Of a DNA stretch of 64,000 nt, positions 18,482-49,828 are shown piece by piece. A model generated the notes under the pieces. The model saw nothing but the letters and a program-made list of their open reading frames with translations. It did not search any database and was not told the DNA's origin. Both the position numbers and the translations under genes were made by a program. Numbering within the stretch: position 1 is the stretch's first letter; every line of letters starts with the position of its first letter. Source of the DNA: Lachnospiraceae bacterium 10-1 (GTDB lineage: Bacteria; Bacillota; Clostridia; Lachnospirales; Lachnospiraceae); the NCBI GenBank assembly GCA_000403495.2, contig KE159799.1, forward strand, positions 1,165,940 through 1,229,939, written 5' to 3'.

Positions 18482-19093
18482 TTACCGAAACCCTTCCCTT
18501 GTCTCAATATTAACAATAAGATCTACATTTGCGTGTTCAAATTCATTAAGTTCGCCATTCGAAACATCATTATGCTCCAATTCATTATACCAGTCATACT
18601 GAATATAATGATTAAAATATCTGCCGCCTTCCTTAAATGGAAATCCATGACGAGCATATATTTCATTTCTTGCAAATCCAAGTAAATCTTCAAAACTATA
18701 CTCTTCATCATACTTTAATTCGTATAATTCGTCCTCAGTCAGGTATTCATCTGCACTGTCGGGAAAAATAAATCCATCAGCATCAAAAACACTGTCCGAT
18801 TCAGCTTCCTCCACCGAAACTCCAGTTTCAACTGCTGCCGCTTCCTCCGTGGCGGCCATGGAATCACTACTGCTTCCATCAGACAAAGCATCCAGCACTC
18901 CTGGATAATGGACTTCCATATATCTGCTAATCCAAGGGGAAGTTCCTGCCTGAGATGAACGAATAAGGTCTACTATAAAAAGTCCAATGAGAATAGCTAT
19001 TATCCAAGTTGCTACCTTTTTTGACATGGATTTTACAGTATATTTTTTTCTTGTATTCTCAGCATTTTCTGTCTTGTCTTCTTCCATTTCCAT
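18482..19093 (-). CDS. Membrane-anchored YARHG-domain protein
   Basis: 203 residues. One transmembrane helix near residues 27-44 (VATWIIAILIGLFIVDLI), an acidic Ser/Ala/Glu-rich linker, and a C-terminal YARHG domain (FARNEIYARHGFPFKEGGRYF, slightly split here by the family spacing) that is thought to be extracellular in many Firmicutes. Its role is unknown. It is the last gene of the cargo operon, 10 bases after the membrane GTPase gene, so it may assist at the membrane. Confidence 0.75.
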   Translation of the reverse strand: MEMEEDKTENAENTRKKYTVKSMSKKVATWIIAILIGLFIVDLIRSSQAGTSPWISRYMEVHYPGVLDALSDGSSSDSMAATEEAAAVETGVSVEEAESDSVFDADGFIFPDSADEYLTEDELYELKYDEEYSFEDLLGFARNEIYARHGFPFKEGGRYFNHYIQYDWYNELEHNDVSNGELNEFEHANVDLIVNIETREGFR

Positions 19094-19103
19094 CGACCTT
19101 CCT

Positions 19104-21785
19104 TTACAGTATAATCCACATCGCAGGTCTTAACCCGCCATTTCTGTTATTAACCGTATTACCGCCATCACTTATTGCCCCTTTGGAATCAACAATAGCA
19201 GCGTAGGAGTTGTTTCCGCCTGGTGTTCTCAACCAACACCATTCAGCTTTTATTCCCCCTTCCTTCGGAATCCTATCCTGATCAGACGAAAACAGTGTTC
19301 TCATTTCTGAATCACTTAGCAAAAAAACTGCATCAACAGTATTTTCTCCGCCGCTCGTTCCATATTCTGGGTTTCCATTATTTGATATCATTGTTGAAAA
19401 TATCATTCTTTTTTCACGGTCATCAAAATCACATAAAAAATCTGTGTTAAGAAATTTCCTGACACTGCTATCCCTCCAGGTAATTCCAGTCAAAGTATCA
19501 TTATATGCTTTTTGGCAGATAACCGTTTCGGTTATTACCAACGCCATATCCTTATCTACTCGAATAACTCTCCATTTATATTTTCCAAACGCAAGGTTTC
19601 TCCTTTCACCATTCTTTATAAGTTTAGGGAAGAGAAGTCTTACATTCTGCTTGGCATCCTTATAATCACCGAGCTTGTTATATTCATCAAGCGCAACCTT
19701 TGGATTACCTTGTTCCGCCTCCTTTTTAGCAATCAAATACCGCACTTCCAAATATTTTGAATGCGTGTCCTTATAGTTTCCAAGACGCTTAAAACAATCG
19801 CAGGCCCTTTTATATTTTCCTTCATTCACCAGAATTTTTCCATACTGATACAAAGATTCAGCGGCATAGTCAGCAGAATCTTTATAATCCTTAATGGCAG
19901 TGAACTGTTTTGCCGCCTCCTCAAAATTATTCCCTTCAAACATTCGCTTTGCATAACTATAGCACTGCGCTGTTACAGTTTTGGCGCGTTCTTGTGCATC
20001 ACGATAATTTCCCAAACGCATGAATTCATCATAAGCTTTGCCAAATTCTCTATCAGAAAGAAATTTCTCAGCTTTTTTATAGCGTTCCAACAATGCTTTT
20101 GCCGTTAAAACATCTTCAAAAGAATCTTCACCTACTATTTTACTTGAGGCAGCAAGTATGTCTTTGAATCTAACATTATTTTGACTGGCTATCCACCCAA
20201 TCGGTTCTATTACACCAAACGGACTGAATGGCGTTCCTTCTTCTGCCATATGACCCATCGCACTTGACGGAAAGTATTGCACTTTAGAAAATACGCTCTC
20301 CAAATTATTAATCGTATTTGCCATTCCTATTGAAATCATATAATTTCTGCAAGCTGTATTTCTCGCAATATTAATGTCATCATTGAATTTGGCTGGATTA
20401 GATTGGTACATTTTTTCAATCGCTCTTAATCCAATTTTATTTTTCACAGCTTTTAAGTCCGCTTTATTGATAATGACCGCAACTGGAATTTTTATCATTT
20501 TATTTGAAGAACGGTTACTTAATCTCGAAAATTGCTGTATAAATTCAATTATTACATCCTCTGCATTCGCTTCATTATCAGCAAAGCTGTTATCCGGTAT
20601 CATCTGTCCATTCTTTTCACTCTCGTTTCGCACAGCCTTTATTGTTGTCGGATCAATAATAATCAAAACTCCATCTGTATATCCAAAATTCAGCGGATTC
20701 TGCTCATATACACCACTGATAAGCACCTCATCCGGGACATCATATACCACAAGGGTGTCTTTGAATCCATCCTCATATTTATGTACCATGCTATATGTAA
20801 CAATAGAGGTCTTAGACGACTCAGATGTATTTCCGGTCATGAACATTTTTTCCAGTGCATCAAACTCTTCTTTTGGAAACGGTTCAATCTTAACATTATC
20901 CGCATTTCCCGTCATGCGGTACAAATGTTGAAAAGAAGCTAAAAATGCACTCTTCCCTGATGTATCCCCACCTATCAATTGAAGGGTAAATTCCCTGGCT
21001 CCCGTTGCTGCCAGTGGCTTTTCGCATTCTGGACAGACACTTTCAAGACGGGAACGGCCTGATATTAAAGAACATGGCAAAAATTTCCCACATCCGCATC
21101 TTGCTGTTAATATTCCCGTATCCCCAGGGACTAAATCCTTATGTATTTTGCCGCATGAAGGGCATACATATCCTGGCACTTTAAAAGATCGGTAACAATA
21201 GGTACAATGCTGTTCGTTTCTTTTCGCTTTATCTATCAGATTAAAAAAGGGAGTAACTATCAATGTGACAATCTTCAAGATAATAAGCAACAATCCATGT
21301 ATAATACTTGCAATCCACAAATATATTGTTCCAAACACAACCCTGAACACCATTTCAATAAAGCCAATAACTGTTAAAGGTATATGTATAAAAGAAAGCA
21401 AAAACAGCCTTAATTTTGAATCCGATTCATAAATGCCAAGATGGTATGCCACACCAGCGGCACTAAGCAATAGCCATGTCCTGTCTGAGAGAAAGTTGTG
21501 GGCATCCCTATAAATATAACGGCGTTGATATTGTCCTGTCCCTCTGAAATAGCTGAATGTCAATCCGCTATTATATTTTTCTTTCCATTTATCCCTGTTA
21601 AAAAACATAGCACGAATTTGTGTTAATATAATCCCCAGTATAGACAAATAAAATGCGGCATGAATAATAAACCTCACAACTGGCGGCAATATATTCACAA
21701 AATGCACAGACATATTCCATGCATTCTTTATCCATGAAAAAAAAATGCTTACATGTTCAGCAACAGCAGATGGCATTGAATCCAT
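19104..21785 (-). CDS. Membrane zinc-ribbon GTPase with helical repeats and C-terminal DUF6273 domain
   Basis: 893 residues. Order: membrane helices within residues 35-60 and 125-180; zinc-ribbon cysteines (CTYC, CPSC, RCGCG, CPEC) at about 194-254; a GTPase-like domain with P-loop GGDTSGKS (272-279), a YDVPDE switch-type motif and VIINKADL (NKxD) guanine specificity; TPR-like repeats (AYDEFMRLGNYRDAQERAK and similar, several copies) at about 570-720; and a DUF6273-type tail (WRDSSVRKFLNTDF ... GGLRPAMWI). It resembles the DO-GTPase group named in surveys of NTP-dependent conflict systems. GGAGG precedes the ATG. It probably places the system at the membrane; DUF6273 may sense or bind a surface ligand, which is speculation. 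Confidence 0.75.
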   Translation of the reverse strand: MDSMPSAVAEHVSIFFSWIKNAWNMSVHFVNILPPVVRFIIHAAFYLSILGIILTQIRAMFFNRDKWKEKYNSGLTFSYFRGTGQYQRRYIYRDAHNFLSDRTWLLLSAAGVAYHLGIYESDSKLRLFLLSFIHIPLTVIGFIEMVFRVVFGTIYLWIASIIHGLLLIILKIVTLIVTPFFNLIDKAKRNEQHCTYCYRSFKVPGYVCPSCGKIHKDLVPGDTGILTARCGCGKFLPCSLISGRSRLESVCPECEKPLAATGAREFTLQLIGGDTSGKSAFLASFQHLYRMTGNADNVKIEPFPKEEFDALEKMFMTGNTSESSKTSIVTYSMVHKYEDGFKDTLVVYDVPDEVLISGVYEQNPLNFGYTDGVLIIIDPTTIKAVRNESEKNGQMIPDNSFADNEANAEDVIIEFIQQFSRLSNRSSNKMIKIPVAVIINKADLKAVKNKIGLRAIEKMYQSNPAKFNDDINIARNTACRNYMISIGMANTINNLESVFSKVQYFPSSAMGHMAEEGTPFSPFGVIEPIGWIASQNNVRFKDILAASSKIVGEDSFEDVLTAKALLERYKKAEKFLSDREFGKAYDEFMRLGNYRDAQERAKTVTAQCYSYAKRMFEGNNFEEAAKQFTAIKDYKDSADYAAESLYQYGKILVNEGKYKRACDCFKRLGNYKDTHSKYLEVRYLIAKKEAEQGNPKVALDEYNKLGDYKDAKQNVRLLFPKLIKNGERRNLAFGKYKWRVIRVDKDMALVITETVICQKAYNDTLTGITWRDSSVRKFLNTDFLCDFDDREKRMIFSTMISNNGNPEYGTSGGENTVDAVFLLSDSEMRTLFSSDQDRIPKEGGIKAEWCWLRTPGGNNSYAAIVDSKGAISDGGNTVNNRNGGLRPAMWIIL

Positions 21786-21803
21786 TGTCCCCGACCTCCT
21801 ATT

Positions 21804-22148
21804 CTACATCTCCTGCCCGTTTTCCTCTGTTTCGCTTGATTCTTCTTGAGACAAATTATCTTCATCCTGCATTTCATGGGCATGAGATCTGTTTTCATGC
21901 GGATCCTCTATCTGATAATAATCAGGATTATTCATTCTCTCATTAAACTCTTCCTGATCCAACCCCTCGGCTTCTGCCTTTTCTGCTTCGCGCCAATGCT
22001 CGTGACCGGCTTTATGCCCAAGATCATACTTTCCTTCTATAGGCTTTCCAGTATTGGCATCTAAAAACTGTCCTTTTTCATTTTTTTCAGCCCTTTTTTC
22101 TACCTCTTCACGGACACTTGCACGTATGTACGGTCTATGCAACGCCAT
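21804..22148 (-). CDS. GH-E-type HNH/Endonuclease VII nuclease-like protein (putative effector)
   Basis: 114 residues. The segment YDLGHKAGHEHWREAEKAEA (41-60) and NNPDYYQIEDPHENRSHAHE (73-92) match the GH-E toxin nuclease domain of the HNH/EndoVII group, with the conserved Gly-His (44-45), Gly-His-Glu (48-50), Asn86 and His89. In known polymorphic toxins this domain is the C-terminal warhead of a large secreted protein; here it stands alone with an acidic tail. The ATG at 22148 follows GAGGAGG; it begins two bases after the DUF2185 stop codon, so the two are coupled. I infer that it is the DNA-cutting effector of the cargo system. Confidence 0.75.
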   Translation of the reverse strand: MALHRPYIRASVREEVEKRAEKNEKGQFLDANTGKPIEGKYDLGHKAGHEHWREAEKAEAEGLDQEEFNERMNNPDYYQIEDPHENRSHAHEMQDEDNLSQEESSETEENGQEM

Positions 22149-22150
22149 AG

Positions 22151-22465
22151 TCAAGCCTCCTCTATATTCCTGCCGAAATCAAAGTCCTCAACCATTCGAA
22201 AACACTTCTCATCTTCATCTTTCTCAAATGCACTGTATTCCGCAGAATCCAGGTAAGGCCTTATGCTTTTGTCGATATCCAGTATAGTCTGGATATCATA
22301 AATTTTAATATTATCCGGATCATCTACATATTGCTGATCCTCTTCTCCCGTAAAAAAACGCCATCCACTATCGTTCCCTTCCCCTTTTTCACGATACATA
22401 AACCTTACAAGTTTTCTTTCTTCCACAAGCATTCTCGAAGCCATAACAAATCCAATATTTCTCAT
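22151..22465 (-). CDS. DUF2185 / Imm33-like immunity protein
   Basis: 104 residues. The pattern FVMASRMLVEERKLVRFMYRE, then DSGWRFFTGEEDQQYVDDPD and YDIQTILDIDKSIRPYLDS, matches DUF2185 proteins, which act as immunity proteins for toxin domains. It immediately precedes the GH-E nuclease gene (two-base gap), the usual intimate arrangement of toxin and antidote. GGAGGAAG lies before the ATG. Neutralising the neighbouring nuclease is inferred from order and family. Confidence 0.75.
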   Translation of the reverse strand: MRNIGFVMASRMLVEERKLVRFMYREKGEGNDSGWRFFTGEEDQQYVDDPDNIKIYDIQTILDIDKSIRPYLDSAEYSAFEKDEDEKCFRMVEDFDFGRNIEEA

Positions 22466-22476
22466 ATCACTTCCTC

Positions 22477-24987
22477 CTATTTTCTGAATCCGCCAAATAA
22501 TTTAGAAACGATAGAACCATCTCTTTCCTTTATTTCATCAGCTGCATCATCAATAATATTTTCATAATATTTGCGCATACTCTTGTCTGACAAAAGTTTA
22601 CCCAAGGCATCCAGATTCTTCTTTTTAAGTCCAGAATTTACAATAGAGCTGCTCAAAATGCTCTCAAGCTTCCTCTTAGTTCTTGCGTTAGGACTTGCAT
22701 AAATAAATTCAAGTGTTCTTTCCCATTTTTCTGGATTTGATTCAGCTGTCATAACAAGTGCGGACATATACTGTTTAAGAAAAATATCCGGACTCTCCAA
22801 TAACAAATCAAGGATAAACCACTGGTCCTCTCTGGTTGTCTTAATCTTTAACAGTGCAGATATCAGCCGTGCAACATAATTTTTTGATAAAACAGAAGGA
22901 AAATCCTGTTTTATATACGGCTTCAAACACATTTTAACAGAATCTCCTTTTTTCATATGCAGCAAATTATCTATCGCTACAATATGGGCAGAATTTGTAC
23001 AAACAGTGTCTTTCGGGAGGTTTTTCTGTATAGATGCTGCAAAAATTTCAGAGTCCTGTCCCTCCACGTTTACCCTGCCATCAAGAAGCTCATAGATTTT
23101 TTCCTTTGTTTTCTCATCAAAACAGGCTGCGCTGACTGCTCTTTCTGAAAATGCTTCCAGTTCCATTATGTTCTCCGCATCTTCAATATAATGGCGTACA
23201 AGCATCTGTTCCTTATCATACATACCATATTCTGATAAATCCCCGCATAATAAGAACATATCGTCAAGAGTCAAGCCTCTACCACTGCTTACTACAATAA
23301 CATGGTCTACTACAGAATCAAAAATCTCTGGTTCATAAGTCTTAATACCATCTAACAAGAATTTAAGTGCATCATCTCCAACTACTTTTTTTAGTGTCAA
23401 CAATATGCGTTTGTATGAGCTGTCCGTCATTGGCTTTTTTTCACATGATGTAACACAGTATGAAACAATCAATTTTGCCGATTCACCCTTCCTTAGTATA
23501 TCACGGCATAACATACAATAGATCTCTAAGAAGAGAACAGCATCAGAAGAATCATATAACCTTATTACTTCAGCATATTCATCTGCAACTGACATATCCG
23601 TTAAAAGTTTTCCAACATCCTCAACAAATGGTCCTCCCTTAACTTCATCCCAAAAAGCTGTAATTCCACCCTTCTTATAATCAGTGAAAAACACTTCCTT
23701 TGCTCTGTCCCTAATAATCTCTGACAATCTCGTCTTCGCGTCAGGATCTCCTACCACGTCAGATACATCCCCTACCCAATTAAGAATAGGAAATGATTTT
23801 TCCAAGCTGCTTTTTATAAATTGACCAAGCCGGCAATTAACCTTTTCATATATCTCGGAAATAATATTCGTCTTATAAATCTTATATTTAGACAATACTG
23901 AAAGTGCTTTGGCATATTCTTCCGGAGAACCAAAAGAATCTCCGCATAATATTTCATATGCTTTCGCAAGTGCATTAAAATCAGCTGAAGGAAAATGAAT
24001 ATCGAATGATTGCAAAAATTCTCTCGAAAACCTTTCATGCATTCCATCAAAGGATGATATTATATTAAAAAATTCTCCCAATGATTCCATATTAAATTCT
24101 GCCTTCTTGTTTTCTCCGTCTAAAACTACATAAGGCGAATCATTAAGAATGCGCACCTGATTGGACTTGTCCTTTGAAGCAACTCCAACAATCATAGCCC
24201 GCAAACGGGTATGGTTAGCTGGAGAGCTTTGCTGTTGCTGTGAAAAGCTGCCATCTTCTTTCACATAATATATATTGGAATTGATGAATTTATCCATTCG
24301 TGTGGCAAATGGAATGTTTGATGCAATTCTTGGCGAAAATGCCAGTTCAATTGCACCTATCCACATTTCTATATTTTCCGATGATTCATCTTTTATTACA
24401 AGATATTTCCTTTTGTCAAGCGGCAGCAAAAATTGGCCAAGAATAAAAGCAACAGCTTTCTTTAATGCATCTGCCCTACCATCCTTAATAAAATTTCCTA
24501 TTTTGCTAAAAGAATAAAACGGGCTTTCACTTGCTCTTATTTCCCTGCATTCCAAATCTGCTGGTTCATTTTCATAATAATACGCCTCATTATTTTCCCG
24601 GGCTGTCCAAACCTTCCTATCGTGAAAAATCTCAAAAGGATAAAGATATTTAAAATTCCCTATAATAGCATGATTCAAATACATACCCGGACGTTTTGCA
24701 AAATCCCCGGTCACAGACAAATCATATGGAATTGGATGAAAGGAGTTTAAGAAACTAAACCCTGCATCCGGCACAGCATAAAGATATGCATCATCCATAA
24801 AATCCGGTTCACTAAACGACTGCTTTTTCTGTAATGAATTCATAACAAGCTGCAGATCAACGATATCTTCTTTATATAAATCAGAGCAACAGGCATATAC
24901 CTTAAACCCATCACTCAAAATCGGCTGACCAGAACGTAGTATATCTACACCATGTCTGCATCTTGTGTAAATCAGATCATAATACAT
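22477..24987 (-). CDS. GTPase-associated protein 1 (GAP1)-like protein
   Basis: 836 residues, no membrane helix. The N-terminus (YDLIYTRCRHGVDILRSG ... GFKVYACCSDL) and a following block (PGMYLNHAIIGNF, AYYYENEPADLE) resemble the GAP1 N-terminal domain that accompanies TRAFAC-type GTPases in predicted conflict systems. The C-terminal two thirds are alpha-helical repeats without a motif I can name. AAGGAG precedes the ATG. It lies directly after the soluble GTPase gene (32-base gap) and before the immunity gene, so it may link GTPase state to the nuclease. Confidence 0.65.
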   Translation of the reverse strand: MYYDLIYTRCRHGVDILRSGQPILSDGFKVYACCSDLYKEDIVDLQLVMNSLQKKQSFSEPDFMDDAYLYAVPDAGFSFLNSFHPIPYDLSVTGDFAKRPGMYLNHAIIGNFKYLYPFEIFHDRKVWTARENNEAYYYENEPADLECREIRASESPFYSFSKIGNFIKDGRADALKKAVAFILGQFLLPLDKRKYLVIKDESSENIEMWIGAIELAFSPRIASNIPFATRMDKFINSNIYYVKEDGSFSQQQQSSPANHTRLRAMIVGVASKDKSNQVRILNDSPYVVLDGENKKAEFNMESLGEFFNIISSFDGMHERFSREFLQSFDIHFPSADFNALAKAYEILCGDSFGSPEEYAKALSVLSKYKIYKTNIISEIYEKVNCRLGQFIKSSLEKSFPILNWVGDVSDVVGDPDAKTRLSEIIRDRAKEVFFTDYKKGGITAFWDEVKGGPFVEDVGKLLTDMSVADEYAEVIRLYDSSDAVLFLEIYCMLCRDILRKGESAKLIVSYCVTSCEKKPMTDSSYKRILLTLKKVVGDDALKFLLDGIKTYEPEIFDSVVDHVIVVSSGRGLTLDDMFLLCGDLSEYGMYDKEQMLVRHYIEDAENIMELEAFSERAVSAACFDEKTKEKIYELLDGRVNVEGQDSEIFAASIQKNLPKDTVCTNSAHIVAIDNLLHMKKGDSVKMCLKPYIKQDFPSVLSKNYVARLISALLKIKTTREDQWFILDLLLESPDIFLKQYMSALVMTAESNPEKWERTLEFIYASPNARTKRKLESILSSSIVNSGLKKKNLDALGKLLSDKSMRKYYENIIDDAADEIKERDGSIVSKLFGGFRK

Positions 24988-25019
24988 AAAATCTCCTTCC
25001 CGATACCACTATACCAGTA

Positions 25020-26192
25020 TCAATCTATAAACTTTTCTTCCTTAAACAGCCAAAGAACCGGATCTAAAATCCTATGAGGTTTTATGTTTTCATTTACAGA
25101 ACCCTGTGTCTCAGGCGGTTCTCCGTAACTGGAAACCCCAAAGAAATAAAAATTTTTAAAATTCGACTCCAATGCAGCAATAAATGACCCTTCTCCAATT
25201 CCATAGAGCCAATCTCTGATTTCCTCATTTACCTGCGAAATCTCCGTCAGGTTTACCTTACCCCTGGAAAATGTCATACTAGGTTTTCGAACCACAGCTC
25301 CTGCCGGAAGTGAATCCAACTGAAGAATTGTATCAAATTTTGTCAGAACGACAGCAACTGGTATTGTCAACATCTTATTCGTATTTAGCCCTCTTGCTGC
25401 TTTTATGTAAGCAGCAACACTATTGACTATATCTTCTGCACTATTTGTATCCCCTTCTGAAGCTCCGGAATTTCTTCTCACATCAGGGTTAATCATCCTC
25501 CGAAGATTAGTGAGAATCAATGGATCCAATGTAATAATAATTGCGTTAGATGCATTAATGTATCCGCATATTGCTGATGACGGATCCAGCCTTTCTGAAT
25601 GATCCTCTCCTGCTCCATCATAAATTGTAAATGTATATGTAGGCGTAGTGTTACTCTTTTGCCTCATCAGATTCTTAATCTGCCAAAGCTGGGGCTTCAG
25701 CCTATCTCCCAGTTCTGTAGGATCAGTCGGTCTCGGGGGGATATGATTCTCGTAAATATTTGTATAATTCTCCCTTTGGACATCCCTCGTGTACTTATTT
25801 TGTGCTGACAAGGCAATCCTCAATTCAGAAACCCGGCTTAACTCATGAAGCATAACTGTAATAAAATTGGTTTTTCCAGACGATGATACTCCTATAATAC
25901 AAAATGGAAGGCTTCCGTCAGCATCAAGAGCACCTAGTGGAATAACTCCTTTTGCTTCTTCTGGTATTTGCTTGTTATATTCTCCACATTCAGGGCAAAG
26001 CCTTACCGTTGCCATCCTTCCACAATGCTCACAGCGTATGGAAGGTTTTTTCTTTTCCGCAGATGTCTTAGGATAAGTTGTCTCACCACAATCAGGACAT
26101 ACATATTTAATTCTTTCTTTATCATACTCACTAAAGCAGAACGGACAGGTAAACTTTCCGCGATTCATAAATTTGTTAAATATCCCAGCCAT
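25020..26192 (-). CDS. Zinc-ribbon GTPase, DO-GTPase-like
   Basis: 390 residues. Two N-terminal zinc ribbons (CPFC/CPDC at 16-35 and CEHC/CPEC at 54-69) precede a P-loop domain: GVSSSGKT (101-108), a YDGAGED segment in the switch-II position, and VVLTKFD (TKxD) as the base-specificity motif. Related in layout to the membrane GTPase at 19104-21785, but soluble. Strong GAGGAGG ribosome-binding site. Zinc ribbons of this kind also occur in the scaffold protein upstream, suggesting a shared complex. It likely acts as the switch of the cargo system. Confidence 0.75.
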   Translation of the reverse strand: MAGIFNKFMNRGKFTCPFCFSEYDKERIKYVCPDCGETTYPKTSAEKKKPSIRCEHCGRMATVRLCPECGEYNKQIPEEAKGVIPLGALDADGSLPFCIIGVSSSGKTNFITVMLHELSRVSELRIALSAQNKYTRDVQRENYTNIYENHIPPRPTDPTELGDRLKPQLWQIKNLMRQKSNTTPTYTFTIYDGAGEDHSERLDPSSAICGYINASNAIIITLDPLILTNLRRMINPDVRRNSGASEGDTNSAEDIVNSVAAYIKAARGLNTNKMLTIPVAVVLTKFDTILQLDSLPAGAVVRKPSMTFSRGKVNLTEISQVNEEIRDWLYGIGEGSFIAALESNFKNFYFFGVSSYGEPPETQGSVNENIKPHRILDPVLWLFKEEKFID

Positions 26193-26213
26193 TGGAACCT
26201 CCTCATTGAAATA

Positions 26214-29200: not shown

Positions 29201-29279
29201 CAGCCTTAATCTTTTTTGCGGCTTTTTCAGCAGGATCAAACGATAGACCCGTTATATCAAAAAAATCGTATTCCGCCAT
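26214..29279 (-). CDS. Large scaffold: J-like N-terminus, zinc ribbons, helical repeats and fibronectin-type domains
   Basis: 1021 residues. The N-terminus (YDFFDITGLSFDPAEKAAKK ... DGKVLPKFAELADERK) has the helix pattern of divergent J-domains that accompany operon-borne Hsp70s, but no HPD tripeptide. At about 325-385 there are zinc-ribbon pairs (CVNC, CRHC, CSHC, CPEC). A TPR-like helical region follows (SLAEKALKQGKLNEAREQL), then fibronectin-type beta repeats (VVIRWDKSTEPGVSYVLVKK; IVSWRLPENSRGAIVKY) to the end. It sits between the Hsp70-vWA gene and the GTPase gene, and may bring client, chaperone and GTPase together; that is inferred from the domain mix. Confidence 0.65.
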   Translation of the reverse strand: MAEYDFFDITGLSFDPAEKAAKKIKAAIEKAEKSLGGMLGSISQQAQRDEINGKLDLLRKVKAEVLSNDGKVLPKFAELADERKTTSRKRLESAIRLEKLSKSELVVTNGKIKAQKKNTRLSKESIEDAYRSYGFTILNIDPFAAMPKFPTNSEKIYSELAILRESRDPNPNGADLTKVYDLYSFAAYLSGEPENAAEYKDMSTRDISNLFDEYSKKNSMRNDPLGKLCVSIATAGKTNVFNNETNRKAYEQFLLYKSPELTELFSIMKDSVQSDLRDFGFADICIKKITDVFGDSDVALAIYNSEAGLRDDPYVPEKASFSVKCVNCQNVSEFVSIKEAKKVNKCRHCGKEFYKKCSHCGKDILVSLNRCPECGFVFANVALFSKYISLAEKALKQGKLNEAREQLIRAKIAEPNEQSQTVSLEKKLESEEAKIAEPIKKLRVLITSKRYEAAESFLAEIVRKYPQIDLMDQKKEIKNVLSGCRSRFEACETMPLSDKINICLEILDICEDFRPAKEILDRNPPVVVRGIKALFDDDKKAVVIRWDKSTEPGVSYVLVKKNGSAVAIGINDGTVLMKGGDTSFNDRSISAGNEYTYTLFAYRKGSISKPIFVRTRVLSRILDLRNQQKDNSLIVSWRLPENSRGAIVKYQHKGKEYTISDNVYQSIEIKNIEYGNPYTICVSADYGDLGISDIEKITVTPTPVVNSFYITGGQVKDNHCPIGWSITEKNVDLQIMVDGKVVQNTRSELKTCIINLPPDNHYKVRVKAFSGGQWIPSENELIINTYKPVQIDENGTTISENTRSTAKGTSHQIEIKVKLEDNVPRNIVALYCIVRTKEPGMTKAPWATENDINGNSDRIDYDTYLQWHEITKQLTAHDEDAYYVTIFSVYRVEGRDIISAPCKKKFNRPLDANIYWKAIKSLFGSRLTIDIESNRPMGKRPEMVLCASPGGKHLLSDEDSSAVELARISEEVYDRPKLKITESFGLSFSEKKKTKVFLFVKNISNNETYSVRWAAGYDGKL

Positions 29280-29288
29280 ATGAATTTA

Positions 29289-31472: not shown

Positions 31473-31491
31473 TTATCTCTAACTCCCTCTG

Positions 31492-33204
31492 TTAAAAATC
31501 GCTGCTTGTTTTGAGTGAAGCAACATGTCTGATAGCTTCATTCATTTCTTCCTGCGTCTTTGTATTCTCAGATGTAATAACTGTTTCTACCGTTTCGTTG
31601 GTATCCGGATTAGTAGCCTTTACCTCAAGGCCAATTGCACTGCACCGAAAAAACACTTTAATAGGAGAGCCTTTAGGTGTTCCTGTTGGAAGTTCCAGTT
31701 TAACCTCACCCAATTTTTTTACCTTCAATGCAGGATCTGTATATTGCTCATTTCCATTCTCATCTATTGATGGCATTACATGCTTATCATTAATCCGGTC
31801 TTTTCCAACGTTTTCATATATTTTAAGATCTATTGCAACCTGATTATCTACCACTGTTCCATAAGTCTCCGTAGCTTCAGCCGGAGACTCATCTCCCACA
31901 AAGAGAAGATTATCAATCATAAAATGTTCTTCATCAACCCATACAGCCGGACCGAATGAACGAGACAATTTATCACTAACAGTACTCACCTTCTGAGGAA
32001 TTATTTTGCGAAGTTGCTCGGCCTCCTCCTGCGTGAAATCAGGCATCTCATCATCACTTCCATACCCACCGCTTTCTTCATCCTCCTCTTCTCCACTCTG
32101 ATCTTGATTTTTTTCCAATACTCTTTCTACACATTCGAGAGCAGCCTTCAACGCCGCACCTTTTGCCACTGCTAGATCAGGGTCTTCCATCCTTACTTTT
32201 CCTGCAAACACAGTTTCTACAGCTTCACGAATCATTGGCATTTTAGTAGATCCTCCAACAAGAAGAACTACATCAATATCTGCCGCAGTCAGTGAATTAT
32301 TTTCAAGAATCTGCCTGACAAAATCCATAGTCATCTCGACAAGATCCTGTGTCCTTTCCTTAAATGCATCTGCCGAAATCTCTATTCGGGTAACATCACC
32401 ATCATATGATATATTAATACTGTGATTAGCCTTCTTAGAAAGCAACTTTTTTGTTCCTTCCACCTGGCGCTGAATGACAGCTCTTAATTCCGGTGTTATA
32501 TCCTCCAATGCCAAACCATTTTCGTCACAGTACAGCTCCGCAATATAATCATATAACCTGGCATCCCAATCAATACCACCCAGCCGGTCATTGCCGCCTG
32601 AGTCGATAACATCTATGGTTGCTTTGCCATCATCATCAACACTAAAATCAAAAAGTGTGATATCAAATGTACCGCCTCCAAGATCATACACCATAATTTT
32701 TCTGTTTTCACCAAATTCTCTGCAGCAATAATTAAGTGCAGCCGCTGTAGGCTCGTTAACGATATCAAGAACGTTCAGGCCCGCAATTTTACCCGCCTGT
32801 TTAGTCGCAGTTCTTTCCTCATTTCCGAAATATGCCGGACAGGTAATTACGACATCCTTTACTTCATCGTTTCCCTGTTCCTCGGCATATTCCTTCATTC
32901 TCTTCAATATCAAAGAAGAAATCATAATTGGATCATAAGCAACGCCATCAAAATTCCTTATTGTTGCATCTGGTTTTCCAATTTCCCGTTTGACAAACTG
33001 AACCACTCTTTCAGGCTCAATTTCAGCTTGTGCCTTTGCAGCTTCTCCCACTACAGGATCGCCGCTTTCCTGAAAATATACTGCCGATGCAAGCGTCCTG
33101 GAATCCTCCTCATAGTTTTCAATTACCTCCGGCATTCCGTTTTCATTTAAAGTAGCAATAACTGAATAGGTAGTGCCAAGATCAATTCCGTATACTTTTG
33201 CCAT
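31492..33204 (-). CDS. Hsp70 (DnaK-like) chaperone with acidic linker
   Basis: 570 residues, shorter than housekeeping DnaK (about 610). ATPase motifs GIDLGTTYSV, CPAYFGNEER, YDLGGGTFDITLFD and LLVGGSTKMP are intact. A strongly acidic insert lies at about 368-390 (SGEEEDEESGG...), followed by a compact beta-type C-terminal domain (VKKLGEVKLELPTGTPKG) and no classical lid. It is next to a GrpE-like gene and a second, vWA-fused Hsp70, so it is a specialised member of the cargo system and not the cell's DnaK. AGAGGAG ribosome-binding site. Confidence 0.85.
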   Translation of the reverse strand: MAKVYGIDLGTTYSVIATLNENGMPEVIENYEEDSRTLASAVYFQESGDPVVGEAAKAQAEIEPERVVQFVKREIGKPDATIRNFDGVAYDPIMISSLILKRMKEYAEEQGNDEVKDVVITCPAYFGNEERTATKQAGKIAGLNVLDIVNEPTAAALNYCCREFGENRKIMVYDLGGGTFDITLFDFSVDDDGKATIDVIDSGGNDRLGGIDWDARLYDYIAELYCDENGLALEDITPELRAVIQRQVEGTKKLLSKKANHSINISYDGDVTRIEISADAFKERTQDLVEMTMDFVRQILENNSLTAADIDVVLLVGGSTKMPMIREAVETVFAGKVRMEDPDLAVAKGAALKAALECVERVLEKNQDQSGEEEDEESGGYGSDDEMPDFTQEEAEQLRKIIPQKVSTVSDKLSRSFGPAVWVDEEHFMIDNLLFVGDESPAEATETYGTVVDNQVAIDLKIYENVGKDRINDKHVMPSIDENGNEQYTDPALKVKKLGEVKLELPTGTPKGSPIKVFFRCSAIGLEVKATNPDTNETVETVITSENTKTQEEMNEAIRHVASLKTSSDF

Positions 33205-33225
33205 TTTGATTTCTCCTCTCGTTTT

Positions 33226-33942
33226 TTATTCAGTCAAATTATCCACAGCAGATTCTTTATACACATATACATCAACCAGTTCCTTGATAAGGGGTCTCTT
33301 CTCTGTGTAAAAACCAGTACCTTTACTGGAAACGACTGTATCATGCAATTCAGAATTATCCGTTTCTATTCGCTCTACAATCTGACAAAACTTGCTGTTC
33401 CTTTTATCCCCCGGTTTACTCTTCTGCAACATAACGCCATTGCTCTCTAAAAGCTGTTTTATATCCATAAAAAGGTATTTGATATGTTTCGCTGTTTTAT
33501 CATCCACTTCTACGTTCAAAAGCGCCTCATTATCACAATAGATTCTCGCAACCTCGCGTAAAACATCATCAAAAGCCCTGCCTCTGTCTATCTCGTGGTA
33601 GCATTCCAATTCGTCCTGCATAGATTTTAACCTGCCAGCAAATTCATTATGGTAAAGCTTATGCATCTCTCTGACATCAGCTGCCATTTTTTTGTAGCTT
33701 TCTGCCTGTTCTTCAATATGCTGTTCTATCTTTTCAAGGGCTAGACCAAATTTTGGATTGGATTCTTTCTCCGTTTCCCGCTCTTCATCCATTATAAAAT
33801 CGAGAGGTTTGGCGCTCTCTTCACCATTTTTGTCAACAATGTTTTGAATTTCTGATTTATCTATACAATACTCATTTACAGAACCATCTGTGCCAAAAGA
33901 TGTTCTGTCTTTATCGAATGTATTACTTTTTTGTTCCTCCAT
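33226..33942 (-). CDS. GrpE-like nucleotide exchange factor
   Basis: 238 residues. An N-terminal disordered region, a long coiled coil (ALEKIEQHIEEQAESYKKMA ...), a helical part, and a C-terminal segment VVSSKGTGFYTEKRPLIKEL that resembles the GrpE beta-wing. It is encoded 21 bases before the Hsp70 gene, the normal partner position. It probably drives ADP release from one or both Hsp70s. The resemblance is structural in pattern; sequence identity to GrpE is low. Confidence 0.55.
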   Translation of the reverse strand: MEEQKSNTFDKDRTSFGTDGSVNEYCIDKSEIQNIVDKNGEESAKPLDFIMDEERETEKESNPKFGLALEKIEQHIEEQAESYKKMAADVREMHKLYHNEFAGRLKSMQDELECYHEIDRGRAFDDVLREVARIYCDNEALLNVEVDDKTAKHIKYLFMDIKQLLESNGVMLQKSKPGDKRNSKFCQIVERIETDNSELHDTVVSSKGTGFYTEKRPLIKELVDVYVYKESAVDNLTE

Positions 33943-33960
33943 CAGTTTACCTCCATCTAT

Positions 33961-35349
33961 TTACACCTCAGCAAATAATATCCCATTTGTACTATATACA
34001 CATGCCAGCGAACCAGTCAGCTTACCCAGTGTTTCTGCTCTTACTCTGGGTTCATCGGTTTCATCGACAGAAATTCCTCTGGTATCACTGGAATTCATAA
34101 ATGAATTATTCTGTGATATGTTGTATCGTATCCTGATTTTTTTATACTTTCCCATAAAATCTGACCACTTTTGACAAGAAGTACCGGCGGAATGACGAAA
34201 CAACACTATCTTTGCAACATTTCCGGTAAGTTCTGCAAACAATTCATCTCCATGGATATCTCCTCCGTACAACGATGATATAAAATCCTTCTGACTTATC
34301 GCGTATGTCCTTCCCCTCAATAAATCCCTTATTTTCAAAAACCTGGATATTGGAACATCATCGAGCAAAATCGAGAATTCCTTTCCCTGCGCTTGGAGTA
34401 ACATCAAGTGGTTAATAACCAATTCACCAATAAGTTCATTATTGACCCCTCCCACATCAATAGAGATTACTCCTTTCTGATTGAGCATTCTTTTTATATT
34501 GCTTTTTCTGCCAGTCGGTCTCCCATATATTCCTTCAGCCTGACGATTCAGTTTGTTCAAAAAAATTCTAACGGCATCTGTTTCCGATGAACCCGCCATA
34601 TAATATCTATCTATTTCTCTATGTTCAATTGTCGTGATTTCCCCATCCTTTAATAGCTTATCCAGTTCATCTTTTAATTTTAATATAGGAAAAACGGCTA
34701 GATTCTGAATCGTAACTGTTCCCTCTTTATGAAGCACAACCTCTATCAATGCCCTCAACAGTGACTCCGAACTCGGATTGGAATCATCATTCGGCATTGT
34801 TTCGTATAAGAGATATGCAATATCATCCACCGGCATTCCACGGAATACATCATAATAAGTATTTGTTCTATCTATAAATTCCGCATCAACACTATGCTCT
34901 CTTATCATAGCACCGATATCTCGATTACCGCTATGTAATGCTATAAGAGGAATCCCCTCCTGCTGCGATTTATGCACAAAAGGAATTAACGCCTCCATTC
35001 TTGTGCGAACTTCTCCTCCGGAAACAATCTCTCCTTCAGGATAATCGTTTTCACCCCAGATAAAATCCAGAGCAGGGGTTTGGCTCTTTGTGTCATAGTC
35101 ATATATGTCATTATCGCTTGGATCAGATGTTACCAGCAATAACTGCTGCTTATTTTCATTTGGCATAATCATCACAGAGCGATTCTGAAAATTCGCCTCT
35201 GATGCATGATCACATATCTGTCTGATTTCTTTTTTTGTCCTGGCATTTTGTAATGCAGTATATATGGAATTACCAGTCCACATGGATACACCATAAGCAG
35301 CCCTTGTAACACCACCCATTACATGAAATGCGTCACCTAATAAACCCAT
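33961..35349 (-). CDS. Uncharacterised protein resembling a P-loop-less VirD4/HerA-type ATPase
   Basis: 462 residues. I find no Walker A motif. The second half (GVISIDVGGVNNELIGELVI, FSILLDDVPISRFLKIRDLL, RGRTYAISQKDFISSLYGG) has the order seen in TraG/VirD4-like ATPases: a beta strand with an acidic Walker-B-like end, then a SQ-containing sensor-like strand. It follows the active ATPase gene after 7 bases. It may be a degenerate partner subunit forming a mixed ring. This reading is inference from pattern; otherwise the protein is unknown. Confidence 0.5.
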   Translation of the reverse strand: MGLLGDAFHVMGGVTRAAYGVSMWTGNSIYTALQNARTKKEIRQICDHASEANFQNRSVMIMPNENKQQLLLVTSDPSDNDIYDYDTKSQTPALDFIWGENDYPEGEIVSGGEVRTRMEALIPFVHKSQQEGIPLIALHSGNRDIGAMIREHSVDAEFIDRTNTYYDVFRGMPVDDIAYLLYETMPNDDSNPSSESLLRALIEVVLHKEGTVTIQNLAVFPILKLKDELDKLLKDGEITTIEHREIDRYYMAGSSETDAVRIFLNKLNRQAEGIYGRPTGRKSNIKRMLNQKGVISIDVGGVNNELIGELVINHLMLLQAQGKEFSILLDDVPISRFLKIRDLLRGRTYAISQKDFISSLYGGDIHGDELFAELTGNVAKIVLFRHSAGTSCQKWSDFMGKYKKIRIRYNISQNNSFMNSSDTRGISVDETDEPRVRAETLGKLTGSLACVYSTNGILFAEV

Positions 35350-35356
35350 ATCTCAC

Positions 35357-36658
35357 CTACCCATGAAACAAATCAAATTTGAATTTAAATGGCGGAATGT
35401 TTGGTAATCCAACAACAGCCTCGCCTATATCCAAACCAATCAAATCCCAATCCTCTACTACAAAGCCTTCCCGTTTTTCATAATGCCTGCTGCCATTCGC
35501 CTCCGGAAATGTCTCAAGAATCATGTTTTTTCCAAATAGCCTGCTGACGTACTCTCTCGTGTTATAGTCATTTGACTGAAATGCAAATACTGAGCTAAAA
35601 CCCGCAACAGCATTGTGCGCCTTTGCCTCGTTCTCATAGTTTGCATTCAACTGGTCTATTCCTTGAAGCCCCGCCAATATCTTTACACCCAGACTTCGAC
35701 CAAAATTTATTCCGTCTTCCAAATGCCGCAGATTAGGCAAAAGCTTTAATTCATCAGCAATCAGGTATACGTTGCCTTGAGTAGCCGTTCTGCCAAGTGC
35801 TTCTTTCAATGCAAGGTCAAATAACAATGTATAGATTGGAGATAACACATCGCCTATTGCAAGATCATATTCCAAAAATGCCGTATGGCCTCCTTTTCCT
35901 CGAATAAACTTTCGCATGGAAAAGTCTCCTACATCGGAGAAAACACCTGTAAATATATCCCTTGTAACCGAGTATACCTCAGACATCACGCCTTGTGCCT
36001 GAGTTCCTGATTTTCCCCCGATATATGCCGCAACAGAAGCCAGGTCACTATGGCTTCCCACCATTGAGCGTATTTCATCTATCGGAGTCGAATCCAATAA
36101 ATCTTTCAAATCCTTATTGCTGAACGGCACACCCTCCCTGACCAAAGATATAATGATTGAAGCCAATAAATCACGCGCAGCATTGGGAAAGAATGGGTTA
36201 CTGTTATTTTTTTCACTTCTTTCTGCAAACAGTGACTTACAAATCTCCTGTGTGTTTTGGGCTATAGAGATTCTATCCCTTCCATCAGCAGTGATTTCAT
36301 CGTACAAATTCCACTTGGCCGATATCTTTCTATAGGTCTTAGAATTTCCTATTACTACATCTCCCGATTCAAAAAATTTCTTGTGAAAATCCCCTTTACT
36401 ATCAAAAATCAGCATTACGTCATCTTTGTTAAGATTTTTCTTTAATTGTTTTACAATATGGTAGAAAAGGTTCGTCTTTCCACTTCCAGTTCCGCCTACG
36501 AGAAGCAAATGTTTACTTAATATCTCCTCATTTATACCAAATTTAGCTTTTTGTCCATTAAACTTTCCAGAAATTTGGAGACAATCGTGAATGCCATCCT
36601 GTGGAGGACTATTACTCTCAACCAGCCCACCATATACAATTTCATGAGTCAAAGACAT
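35357..36658 (-). CDS. VirD4/TraG/HerA-type P-loop ATPase
   Basis: 433 residues. Walker A GGTGSGKTN close to residue 55, DVMLIFDSKGDFHKKF, Walker B NVYLIADELKLLP, and the following GRSLGVKILAGLQGIDQLN are as in TraM-recognition (VirD4-like) and HerA ATPases. No N-terminal membrane helices are seen, unlike conjugative coupling proteins, and no mating genes are nearby, so a DNA-pumping or sensing role in the cargo system is likelier than conjugation. The ATG at 36658 is chosen for GGGGAGGAG; in-frame ATGs at 36703 (with AAAGGA) and 36724 would overlap the upstream gene. Confidence 0.75.
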   Translation of the reverse strand: MSLTHEIVYGGLVESNSPPQDGIHDCLQISGKFNGQKAKFGINEEILSKHLLLVGGTGSGKTNLFYHIVKQLKKNLNKDDVMLIFDSKGDFHKKFFESGDVVIGNSKTYRKISAKWNLYDEITADGRDRISIAQNTQEICKSLFAERSEKNNSNPFFPNAARDLLASIIISLVREGVPFSNKDLKDLLDSTPIDEIRSMVGSHSDLASVAAYIGGKSGTQAQGVMSEVYSVTRDIFTGVFSDVGDFSMRKFIRGKGGHTAFLEYDLAIGDVLSPIYTLLFDLALKEALGRTATQGNVYLIADELKLLPNLRHLEDGINFGRSLGVKILAGLQGIDQLNANYENEAKAHNAVAGFSSVFAFQSNDYNTREYVSRLFGKNMILETFPEANGSRHYEKREGFVVEDWDLIGLDIGEAVVGLPNIPPFKFKFDLFHG

Positions 36659-36686
36659 TGGAATCTCCTCCCCGCCACAACAGCAT

Positions 36687-37754
36687 TTATGTAATATGGA
36701 CATATCCCGTCCTTTGTTTCTCATTAAAGATATATGTATACCGATAACTTCGGTTATACTTTTTCACAGCAAGATCAATTAACTTTTCAAGAGAATCTCC
36801 AATGGCAAATTCCCTCCAATGTTCGGCTATGCGAAATGCAAAATCAGGATTACCTTCTTCCATTCCTCGGAAAACCATATTCTCTAGTTCACCTTGACAC
36901 GCAATAACAAGCTTGAATTTGGCAAAATAATCAGCATGCTGATTATCTGTATCCAACTTTGTACTCCAAGAAAAATGGTCATTGCTCATTCGTCTGTAAT
37001 CCAAGCCAAAATAATCTACACATTTGATACTTTTACACGGATTGTTTTGATTTAGCGTTATGTCAAAAGTAAAATCATAATAATTCCATTTCCCATCTAT
37101 CTTAATCGCATTCCATGCATGTCTTCCTATTTTTCCATCCGCCCTCTGCGCCTCACCCTCTATCACAACACAAGGGAAAGCAACATAATCACAAATGCTT
37201 TTTACCGCTTTTGCAATACCATCACATACTCCCGAATTTTTCAAAAACGGTCCTGTTATATCATGCTCACCACCACCTTCATGATACAATACTGTGTCTA
37301 TCAAATATGTGTGAATTTCGAACAAAATACCCCATTCATTCTCTTTTTCTACTAGGTTCTTAATCTTGTTTATTGTCGATAAGCACTCGTCTTTGATATC
37401 TTTATAGATACTTGAGGACATTTTATATTTTGGTCGTACAGAAATCTTCTTTCCATCCATAAAAACATTGCATTTATCTACATGAAAAATCATCGGTGTA
37501 TCAAGCATCACGTATCTGTATATTTTTTCAATTTCAACCTTTTTTTCACATGGTGATATATCTATTTTTTCACTAAATGACAAAATCCCAGTCTTAAGAT
37601 CTTCATAAATGCAACGTTCTTGAAAAAGAAGTTTATCCTTATAATATTGAAATCCGTCAAAAGTGCTATATATTGTGAATGTCCTCTCTATCTGCTTTAC
37701 ATGATTTAAATCCTGCATTTTTGCATTTGAAATACCTGTAATGCTTTTTCTCAT
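36687..37754 (-). CDS. Transglutaminase-like protein
   Basis: 355 residues. A transglutaminase/papain-like core is visible with Cys177 (SGVCDGIAKAVKSICDY), His212 (GRHAWNAIKIDGKW) and Asp227 (NYYDFTFD) in the right order and spacing. In bacteria such domains act as proteases, amidases or crosslinkers. The start codon ATG follows directly on the stop codon of the preceding small gene. Within the cargo operon it may cut or modify a protein partner, or act as a second effector. Confidence 0.75.
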   Translation of the reverse strand: MRKSITGISNAKMQDLNHVKQIERTFTIYSTFDGFQYYKDKLLFQERCIYEDLKTGILSFSEKIDISPCEKKVEIEKIYRYVMLDTPMIFHVDKCNVFMDGKKISVRPKYKMSSSIYKDIKDECLSTINKIKNLVEKENEWGILFEIHTYLIDTVLYHEGGGEHDITGPFLKNSGVCDGIAKAVKSICDYVAFPCVVIEGEAQRADGKIGRHAWNAIKIDGKWNYYDFTFDITLNQNNPCKSIKCVDYFGLDYRRMSNDHFSWSTKLDTDNQHADYFAKFKLVIACQGELENMVFRGMEEGNPDFAFRIAEHWREFAIGDSLEKLIDLAVKKYNRSYRYTYIFNEKQRTGYVHIT

Positions 37755-37961
37755 TTACATACACATCTCTTCCTCATCTGCGTACTCTTTAGAAGATGCT
37801 TCTTCTTCCTGATCTCCTCTGAAAGGTACATCCTTAAGAGAATCCCAATCTGTCGTCTGTCTCTGATTTTGGTCAGATTGACCCTGTATATTTTCTTTCT
37901 CTCTGAGTATCTCTCCGGATTCTTCTAACTCTCTTCTTGAAATTTCTGGTGGTCGATTCAT
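37755..37961 (-). CDS. Small acidic hypothetical protein
   Basis: 68 residues, highly charged and apparently disordered (REKENIQGQSDQNQRQ, GDQEEEASSKEYADEEE). GGGAGGTGAAGGA precedes the ATG, and the gene is packed between its neighbours (12 bases and zero bases), so it is probably real. I do not recognise a family. It might be a small adaptor or inhibitor. Confidence 0.55.
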   Translation of the reverse strand: MNRPPEISRRELEESGEILREKENIQGQSDQNQRQTTDWDSLKDVPFRGDQEEEASSKEYADEEEMCM

Positions 37962-37973
37962 TCCTTCACCTCC

Positions 37974-38528
37974 CTATGCGATACAATATTTGTTGTATAA
38001 AGAATCACAATATTCTTTATACAAGTCAAATGCTTCCTCATTTCTTCCCTTTTTAATAAGACTTAAAGTACCGATAACAAGTTCTCTATACATCCTCACA
38101 TAAATAGTCTGCGACTCGTCTTGCTCTCCTATTTTTTTTACAATCAATGGTGCTTTTTCATAATATTCCTGTATTGTTTCCGGATGATAATCTTTAACAT
38201 ATGTATCACGAAACTTTCTCAATATGCTGAGTTCTTCACAGTTATCGTCAAATCGAGCGGACTTTGCTCTCATACACGCTGTTGTGAGATAGCAACCAGA
38301 ATCGTCTTTCTTCTCTGGTTCAACATATGGATTGCCCAGCCAGTCAGTTTCTATTTTTTGATTGCCAAAAATATCAGTTTCAACTTTAGGGTTTCCAAAA
38401 ATATCAGTATTTACTTTTTCATTTCCAAAAATATCAGTTTCAGCATTCCAATTTCCAAAAAAATCTCTATAATATCTCTTTCCGTCCTGTTCAATATATT
38501 CTCGTCCTTCTTTATCAGTTTTAGGCAT
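37974..38528 (-). CDS. CFI-box-type protein with TDIFGN repeats, first gene of the cargo operon
   Basis: 184 residues. Residues 27-65 carry repeated units, TDIFGNEKV, TDIFGNPKV, TDIFGNQKI and TDWLGNPYV, each about 10 residues. After a linker, GCYLTTACMRAKSARFDDNC and ILRKFRDTYVKDY match the CFI-box C-terminal domain, which carries conserved cysteines and is found in proteins of unknown role. Strong GAGGAGGA ribosome-binding site. As first gene it may be the sensor or tether; the repeats look like a repeated binding surface. Confidence 0.65.
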   Translation of the reverse strand: MPKTDKEGREYIEQDGKRYYRDFFGNWNAETDIFGNEKVNTDIFGNPKVETDIFGNQKIETDWLGNPYVEPEKKDDSGCYLTTACMRAKSARFDDNCEELSILRKFRDTYVKDYHPETIQEYYEKAPLIVKKIGEQDESQTIYVRMYRELVIGTLSLIKKGRNEEAFDLYKEYCDSLYNKYCIA

Positions 38529-39409: not shown

Positions 39410-39505
39410 AATCTTTTCAACCTCCATTTTTTACTGTACAAATTTTACTTAGTAAGTTCCTCAAAAAATAAGAAGATAGATAACAATTGCTATCTGTCTC
39501 CTTTG

Positions 39506-49818: not shown

Positions 49819-49828
49819 TTCAATCTCC

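Follow-up and report, generated by a model that had tools for sequence, protein, structure and literature searches.

What does a mobile operon do that brings together two Hsp70 chaperones, two GTPases, ATPase-type proteins and a nuclease with its own immunity protein, and how much of it is new? We address this for a 15-gene operon of Lachnospiraceae bacterium 10-1, found at positions 18482–38528 of a 64,000-nucleotide stretch of contig KE159799.1 (positions 1,165,940 to 1,229,939; hereafter the window, to which all coordinates refer). An initial annotation had proposed the operon as an undescribed combination, and this stands for one part only. The core of chaperones and GTPases is already known, as a prediction (Kaur et al. 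2020, PMC7159879). The new part is a recurring, swappable cassette of ATPases, a transglutaminase-like protein and a nuclease–immunity pair. In the available text of open-licence PMC papers we found no description of such a cassette on such a core; the closest are Kaur et al. and the CoCoNuT systems, and a paper sharing several terms (PMC8195603) names neither GAP1 nor an immunity protein in the text available. As judged from gene content, a core that travels with interchangeable nucleases, each with its own antidote and a motor, suggests a swappable weapon.

The minus strand holds all 15 open reading frames (ORFs), which are separated by 0 to 32 bases apart from two overlaps, bearing out the initial description of co-directional, tightly packed genes. 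The g12/g13 overlap is 4 bases. The nominal 38-base overlap of g3 and g4 probably reflects an over-called g4 start: homologues begin at residue 23 of g4, and a start there would turn the overlap into a gap. Given the tight spacing, the genes are likely on one transcript. A terminator-like hairpin directly after the last gene, g15 (18367–18349), ranked top in a scan for promoters and terminators and is weakened by the lack of any excess of such sites (13 observed versus 10.8 in shuffles, standard deviation 4.0); promoter-like sites were in excess (92 versus 63.4). The genes, from first to last, are:

37974–38528, minus strand: g1, CFI-box protein bearing tandem TDIFGN repeats in its N-terminal part (NF041770 match in NCBIfam at 2.9e-8, below cut-off)
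37755–37961, minus strand: g2, acidic protein of 68 residues, no Pfam family
36687–37754, minus strand: g3, transglutaminase-like protein, candidate triad Cys177/His212/Asp227 (motifs; PF01841, 3.9e-4, under cut-off)
35357–36658 (ORF opens at 36724), minus strand: g4, soluble TrwB/TraD-like ATPase with Walker A motif (PF10412, 2.4e-37; alignments of homologues)
33961–35349, minus strand: g5, predicted TrwB-fold protein without Walker A (structure model and Foldseek)
33226–33942, minus strand: g6, GrpE-like nucleotide exchange factor (PF01025, 1.5e-3, under cut-off; homologues in the same position)
31492–33204, minus strand: g7, Hsp70 (PF00012, 4.4e-87; ATPase motifs)
29289–31472, minus strand: g8, Hsp70 with a vWA domain fused at its C-terminus, MIDAS motif present (PF00012, 8.9e-105; PF00092, 4.5e-19)
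26214–29279, minus strand: g9, putative scaffold with J-like N-terminus lacking HPD, zinc ribbons, TPR-like region and FN3 (fn3, 9.2e-10)
25020–26192, minus strand: g10, zinc-ribbon DO-GTPase2 (PF19993, 6.3e-6, just under cut-off; G1 and G4 motifs)
22477–24987, minus strand: g11, divergent GAP1 (GTPase-associated protein 1), assigned via homologues
22151–22465, minus strand: g12, Imm33 immunity protein (PF09951, 6.6e-27)
21804–22154, minus strand: g13, solo nuclease of the GH-E (HNH/EndoVII) family whose acidic tail ends in GQEM (PF14410, 9e-23; alignment); an ATG at 22148 is a more likely start than the ORF opening
19104–21785, minus strand: g14, membrane DO-GTPase with three transmembrane-like segments, zinc ribbon, GTPase, TPR-like region and C-terminal DUF6273 (PF19789, 2.8e-22; PF19993, 0.015)
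18482–19093, minus strand: g15, one transmembrane-like segment and a YARHG domain (PF13308, 5.4e-10)

Nearly all of the functional labels first given to these genes are backed by family scans, several of them below cut-offs (GrpE, transglutaminase, CFI-box, DO-GTPase2). The weak one is the J-like part of g9, where the hhalign probability to DnaJ is 12.6% and HPD is found in none of 11 aligned sequences; its TPR match is also weak. The membrane segments and DUF6273 end of g14 and the transmembrane–YARHG architecture of g15 had gone unnamed. The short TDIFGN-type repeats of g1 precede its CFI-box region, and among the fetched loci both g1 and g2 occur only here and in a near-identical copy (genome G1132).

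The core consists of the GrpE-like protein (g6), Hsp70 (g7), Hsp70-vWA (g8), the zinc-ribbon/FN3 protein (g9), the DO-GTPases and GAP1 (g11). By its protein families it is a divergent member of the HSP70/GrpE theme of the GAP1-N2 GTPase-centric systems, which are predicted conflict systems, because GAP1, FN3, DO-GTPase, HSP70 and GrpE are found together; in the available text of PMC7159879 this set accounts for about 14% of GAP1-N2 neighbourhoods. Shared with the theme as described there are zinc-ribbon DO-GTPases of which one is membrane-bound, GAP1, an FN3 protein (its TPR/J-like parts being uncertain here), an HSP70, a second HSP70 and GrpE, as well as occurrence in firmicutes and in mobile neighbourhoods. 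In contrast to the theme, the second Hsp70 here carries a vWA domain; its C-terminal region is conserved and fused to vWA, unlike the theme's subset of second HSP70s without a peptide-binding domain. A TrwB pair or HerA ATPase, a transglutaminase and a nuclease with immunity protein are not mentioned for the theme in the main text as available.

Individual core assignments lean on relatives. The PF19993 match of g10 reaches 26.5 bits against a cut-off of 27, and the family is above cut-off in six of the ten genomes holding relatives and in the membrane GTPase of locus G1340a; the G1 and G4 motifs of g10 are also present in g14. GrpE homologues keep the position of g6 in related loci despite its sub-cut-off score. 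The GAP1 assignment of g11, which has no direct Pfam match to either GAP1-N2 or GAP1-M, holds through 12 homologues that align with invariant motifs: with E ≤ 1 as the threshold, nine match GAP1-M (best 3.7e-18) and six GAP1-N2 (best 1.2e-20). One homologue among these 12, G693, had been retrieved with the GAP1-N2 model. An AlphaFold2 model of g11 (predicted local distance difference test, pLDDT, 80) has a long helical C-terminal part and found no PDB match at E ≤ 0.001 in a fold search.

Are these neighbours conserved together? They are, beyond what chance would give, and the initial annotation thereby passes the refuting condition that it had set itself. The core set recurs, either complete or truncated where a contig stops, and 17 loci have it: the window's own, G1132, G1340a, G1286, G1141, G279, G1134-C38, G1134-C18, G1133, G1135, G1136, G1137, G1138, G1139, G1012, G1140 and G855. 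Contig ends cut five of these (G1286, G1136, G1137, G1140, which is in two pieces, and G855), where not every core gene is visible. The taxa include Lachnospiraceae, Ruminococcus, Selenomonas, Treponema, Spirochaetaceae and Symbiobacteriaceae. Distribution is sporadic, with g11 detected in this genome only among 98 related genomes, and in this genome and G279 among 391 genomes of the class. The G279 locus holds GrpE, Hsp70s, Hsp70-vWA, an FN3 protein, a GTPase, GAP1 and a membrane GTPase, and its Hsp70-vWA is 48% identical to g8 over the full length. Searching 398 genomes of the phylum with the Hsp70-vWA C-terminus placed 12 over threshold, of which G855 and G1012 are clear besides our own; in a weak match, G967, BLAST detects a pair of Hsp70 genes and nothing else of the core. 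With a pattern derived from four of these proteins, 12 records were retrieved in the genome collection, two repeating G855 and G1012, and further loci came from g5-profile matches. Five scans of viral contigs gave no relative (in three of them at least 60 stretches matched and none was confirmed), three scans of plasmids gave no match, and phages gave only Hsp70-level matches to g8, all of them spanning less than 80% of the query. We rejected housekeeping chaperones as an explanation; the genome has its own separate DnaK gene elsewhere, g11 is sporadic, and nothing points to a housekeeping function.

In one operon of the spirochaete G1141 (L087+L088, 6388–24437), g9-like FN3/J-like genes stand four in tandem, accompanied by two g10-like GTPases, and a g9-type region is also fused to an Hsp70; the putative scaffold component is thus expanded. 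At G1134-C38 (L090+L091, 30001–59999) two chaperone–GTPase systems lie back to back, the second of which (30001–37905, part of it retrieved) comprises a membrane GTPase, GrpE, Hsp70, an FN3 protein and a GTPase.

What is mounted on the core varies from locus to locus. Our own locus and G1132 carry TrwB-type g4, g5, the transglutaminase-like protein, Imm33 and the GH-E nuclease. At G1340a, in another family of the same order, g4 is 68%, g5 47%, Imm33 60% and GH-E 85% identical, the last over 96 residues. At G279 the ATPase is HerA-like, the nuclease belongs to Endonuclea_NS_2 (1.9e-34) and the immunity protein to YezG (2.1e-7), while the transglutaminase-like protein scores slightly below cut-off; we take PF04634 to be the former DUF600. 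At G1134-C38, with g4 (52%), g5 (23%) and a transglutaminase, a Tox-GHH nuclease (3.7e-22) and SUKH immunity (8.4e-10) sit between g5 and g4. G1134-C18 has a HerA-like ATPase and a transglutaminase, and G1286 has g4 and g5, both on cut contigs. Membrane proteins with YARHG or SH3 domains recur among the loci.

Three nuclease/immunity pairings (GH-E/Imm33, Endonuclea_NS_2/YezG and Tox-GHH/SUKH) are thus found, placed differently relative to the core in different loci. A pair is present at five of the eight ATPase-bearing core loci (own, G1132, G1340a, G279 and G1134-C38), or four of seven once near-identical G1132 is dropped; the remaining three are the two cut contigs just named and G1141. The nine loci without a seen ATPase carry none of these nuclease and immunity families by phmmer, a count based on three nuclease and three immunity queries only. 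Whole-genome searches for g5 were positive in four of the 14 genomes covered; the nine ATPase-free genomes gave no match. Two of the pairings have precedent: NucA/DUF600 and GHH/SUKH partnerships are published in the available text of Zhang et al. (2012, PMC3482391).

The initial annotation's two ATPase-type proteins fare differently. While g4 is TrwB-type, g5 has no Walker A motif and no family match in Pfam or NCBIfam, and a sequence-based designation of g5 as TraD-like failed both the family and the hhalign tests; support comes from the structure model only. This model (pLDDT 77) has as its best Foldseek match TrwB (1e9s, E 1.2e-11, TM-score 0.52/0.55, root-mean-square deviation 6.8) and also matches HerA-DUF4297 chains. 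A simple hydropathy scan found no transmembrane-like segment in g4 or g5, unlike the N-terminal membrane anchor of type IV secretion system (T4SS) coupling proteins. We consider g5 a probable inactive partner of g4. Because its model matches both TrwB and HerA-DUF4297 chains, a mixed ring of active g4 and inactive g5 subunits is plausible.

The transglutaminase core (PF01841) is above cut-off in two of three homologues of g3. The 116 residues of g13 consist of the nuclease and its tail, with no other family and no N-terminal trafficking or secretion domain, and GH-E domains are rare, occurring in two of the 98 related genomes, this one counted. Both g13 and the G1340a nuclease end in GQEM. A 140-residue ORF after the membrane GTPase of G1141 (L087, 1793–2215) has no Pfam family and an acidic tail ending EQEM; it is possibly an unrecognised effector. 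We do not claim a common C-terminal tail as a tag, as cases are too few and the nucleases of G1134-C38 and of genome G1333 have Ser/Gly-rich tails instead.

Do the cassette parts occur beyond the Hsp70 core? In the family to which G1340 belongs, a g4 profile matched five of 38 genomes and led to G1333, where Imm33, GH-E and TrwB genes run head to tail, overlapping or adjoining (L153, 5076–6210), among Tubulin_2 and vWA genes. The nuclease there has a long Ser/Gly/Ala repeat tail. In gene content this cluster, in which no GAP1 or DO-GTPase was identified, resembles the tubulin theme in the available text of PMC7159879. A second G1340 locus (G1340b; L141, contig C27, 123–10426) has g4 and g5 homologues beside kinase, PP2C and vWA proteins and two proteins with DUF6273, the domain at the C-terminus of g14. 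In its make-up it resembles a TerY-P triad. The name TerY-P occurs in the available text of PMC11090510. G1261 and G1301 have g4 homologues without the core in the stretch seen.

From these cases we tentatively propose, as a possibility that is on balance doubtful, a portable effector cassette of immunity protein, nuclease and coupling-protein ATPase, to which a transglutaminase-like protein and a Walker A-less partner of TrwB fold are often added. It would be mounted by different NTPase-gated cores, namely Hsp70/DO-GTPase/GAP1, tubulin and, for the ATPase pair alone, kinase/PP2C/vWA. On this view immunity would have recruited a conjugation-type motor as its nuclease loader, and toxin–immunity swapping would provide diversity.

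As initially described, the operon rides on a mobile element. A 23.4-kb stretch is 96.9% identical in G1132, where the element has a different flank, and this sets its left end at 18173. The element interrupts a gltD-like oxidoreductase gene, and its excision would restore the frame: joining the flanks with one TCAGAG copy gives a single open gltD-like frame. A ParM-like protein is also encoded on the element. Its features are:

18173–48982, strand not assigned: integrative mobile element of 30.8 kb, TCAGAG at both ends (18173–18178 and 48977–48982)
17521–18132 and 48955–49935, minus strand: fragments of the split gltD-like gene flanking the element
38792–39427, minus strand: resolvase (PF00239, 1.5e-27)
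39506–41194, minus strand: MobA/MobL-type relaxase (PF03389, 5.8e-6, at cut-off)
43557–45530, minus strand: large serine recombinase, probable integrase (PF00239, PF07508, PF14287)

On the opposite strand of the element, a gene at 46009–46656 has a weak sigma-70 region 4 match (6e-4, under cut-off) and is a candidate regulator.

How might these parts work together? Our leading candidate, put forward tentatively and at somewhat short of even confidence, is a membrane-linked defence complex gated by GTPases and Hsp70, whose effector would be a motor-coupled nuclease held by its immunity protein. Its basis by sequence or model comprises the core genes, the motifs of the GTPases, Hsp70s and vWA domain, a second GTPase anchored in the membrane, the transmembrane–YARHG protein, a soluble TrwB-type ATPase with its partner, and a solo nuclease beside an immunity gene. 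Envelope or injected signals may be reported by the membrane GTPase together with the YARHG protein, whose place an SH3 protein takes at other loci, and the DO-GTPases with GAP1 would set a threshold. The FN3/zinc-ribbon scaffold (g9) may recruit the Hsp70/GrpE machine, which, once triggered, would pull nuclease and immunity protein apart. As HerA does with its nuclease partner, the mixed g4/g5 ring would then feed DNA to the freed nuclease, which would cut invading or host DNA so that infection stops. The transglutaminase-like protein could act as a protease or cross-linker, and the immunity gene would let the cell carry an active nuclease safely.

We favour this defence complex because a mixed g4/g5 ring is plausible, because motor–nuclease coupling has a precedent in HerA-DUF4297, and because DnaJ-dependent phage sensing is reported in the text available of PMC12169576. 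Also in its favour count the recurrence of the core, the GAP1 assignment through homologues, the co-occurrence of the nuclease–immunity pair with a pumping ATPase, the three nuclease and three immunity families with their published partnerships, the Imm33–GH-E–TrwB neighbourhood in the tubulin-type cluster, the rarity of GH-E and the modelled fold of g5. The HerA-DUF4297 anti-phage complex (PMC11291478, available text) likewise couples a motor of the FtsK/HerA superfamily to a nuclease. It differs from the present system, which has a TrwB-type pair with one Walker A-less partner, an HNH or NucA nuclease with immunity protein (our own being GH-E, not DUF4297) and a GTPase/Hsp70 switch. Compound Type III-A CoCoNuTs share a GTPase, Hsp70-like and vWA parts, FtsK/HerA ATPases and nucleases in one operon; in contrast, as far as the available text of PMC11090510 describes them, their GTPase is McrB-type, their Hsp70 parts are judged poor ATPases, and GAP1 and an immunity pair are absent.

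A number of observations weigh against the defence complex. The core's defence role is itself a prediction, and contacts between g4/g5, Hsp70 and the nuclease are likewise putative. G1141 retains g4 (75%) and g5 (61%) and shows no recognised nuclease or transglutaminase, and g4 and g5 lack hhalign similarity to each other, compared as three-row profiles of low diversity. Five of the nine ATPase-free loci lie on short, cut contigs, and all nine were probed with only six queries. On a tree of Hsp70-vWA, the ATPase label needs at least 4 changes, a number as low in 57 of 500 shuffles, so it is not clearly clustered; G1286 was left out (contig cut) and the G1340a row shortened to 530 residues, and gains were not counted because of one very long row and several cut contigs. 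PADLOC, run on 14 of the 15 genes, gave only partial ATPase-type matches to g4 (best 1e-9), a PDC-M61B match to g7 (3.5e-6) and marginal matches to g6, g8 and g10. Classically, Imm33, SUKH and YezG protect against toxins that are delivered to other cells. In the table of PMC3482391, as far as the text is available, the partners of GH-E are Imm-SuFu and Imm-ank rather than Imm33; the paper also reports polymorphic toxins together with FtsK/HerA ATPases and with transglutaminase domains, of which some are inactive.

Since these are immunities of delivered toxins, contact- or secretion-dependent competition also fits: a TrwB/HerA-type ATPase would export the solo nuclease, the envelope would be spanned by the membrane GTPase and by YARHG/SH3 proteins, and the immunity protein would protect kin. 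Both the nucleases and the immunity proteins come from polymorphic-toxin families, which vary from one relative to the next; the closest fold to g5 is a T4SS coupling protein, and YARHG or SH3 membrane proteins recur. Polymorphic toxin–immunity cassettes, as described in the available text of Zhang et al., share with ours the families, the swapping, solo cassettes and transglutaminase domains; ours differ in being embedded in a chaperone–GTPase operon with no recognised trafficking domain or secretion locus. No secretion channel is recognised in the operon, g13 is a nuclease family only, and the ATPases lack transmembrane-like segments. Furthermore, no Hsp70 or GTPase switches are known to belong to such exporters. 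We regard competition as unlikely, if deserving serious weight. It is quite unlikely that the pair is instead an addiction cassette stabilising the element or operon, with Imm33 loss killing the cell and the nuclease being no effector of the core. Such a role would suit a small overlapping pair on a mobile element and its shifting position relative to the core; however, in the loci seen, the pair occurs only together with a pumping ATPase, directly adjoining TrwB in G1134-C38 and G1333, and the immunity is probably of polymorphic-toxin type rather than a labile antitoxin.

There are two further readings. A stress or proteostasis module without immune role would account for two Hsp70s, a GrpE-like protein and vWA, and is very unlikely given a sporadic (g11 in one of the 98 related genomes), mobile operon that carries a toxin-type nuclease. 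The other makes g4 and g5 coupling proteins that serve conjugation of the element itself, with the operon partly a transfer function. The TrwB family match of g4 and the relaxase on the element suggest it; we judge it very unlikely. The pair shares ATPase domain and fold with TrwB/TraD but differs from those coupling proteins in having no transmembrane-like anchor and one partner without Walker A. It stays with the operon in the spirochaete G1141 and in G1340, and other loci have a HerA-like ATPase instead.

If the defence complex is nevertheless the right reading, what would it mean? Among the effectors of the systems of Kaur et al. (available text of PMC7159879), only a minority are enzymes that attack nucleic acids or proteins. 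A nuclease that recurs together with a dedicated immunity protein, beside a motor resembling a DNA pump, would give GTPase- and chaperone-gated systems a concrete effector. If true, this would link polymorphic toxins, conjugation-type motors and chaperone-gated immunity.

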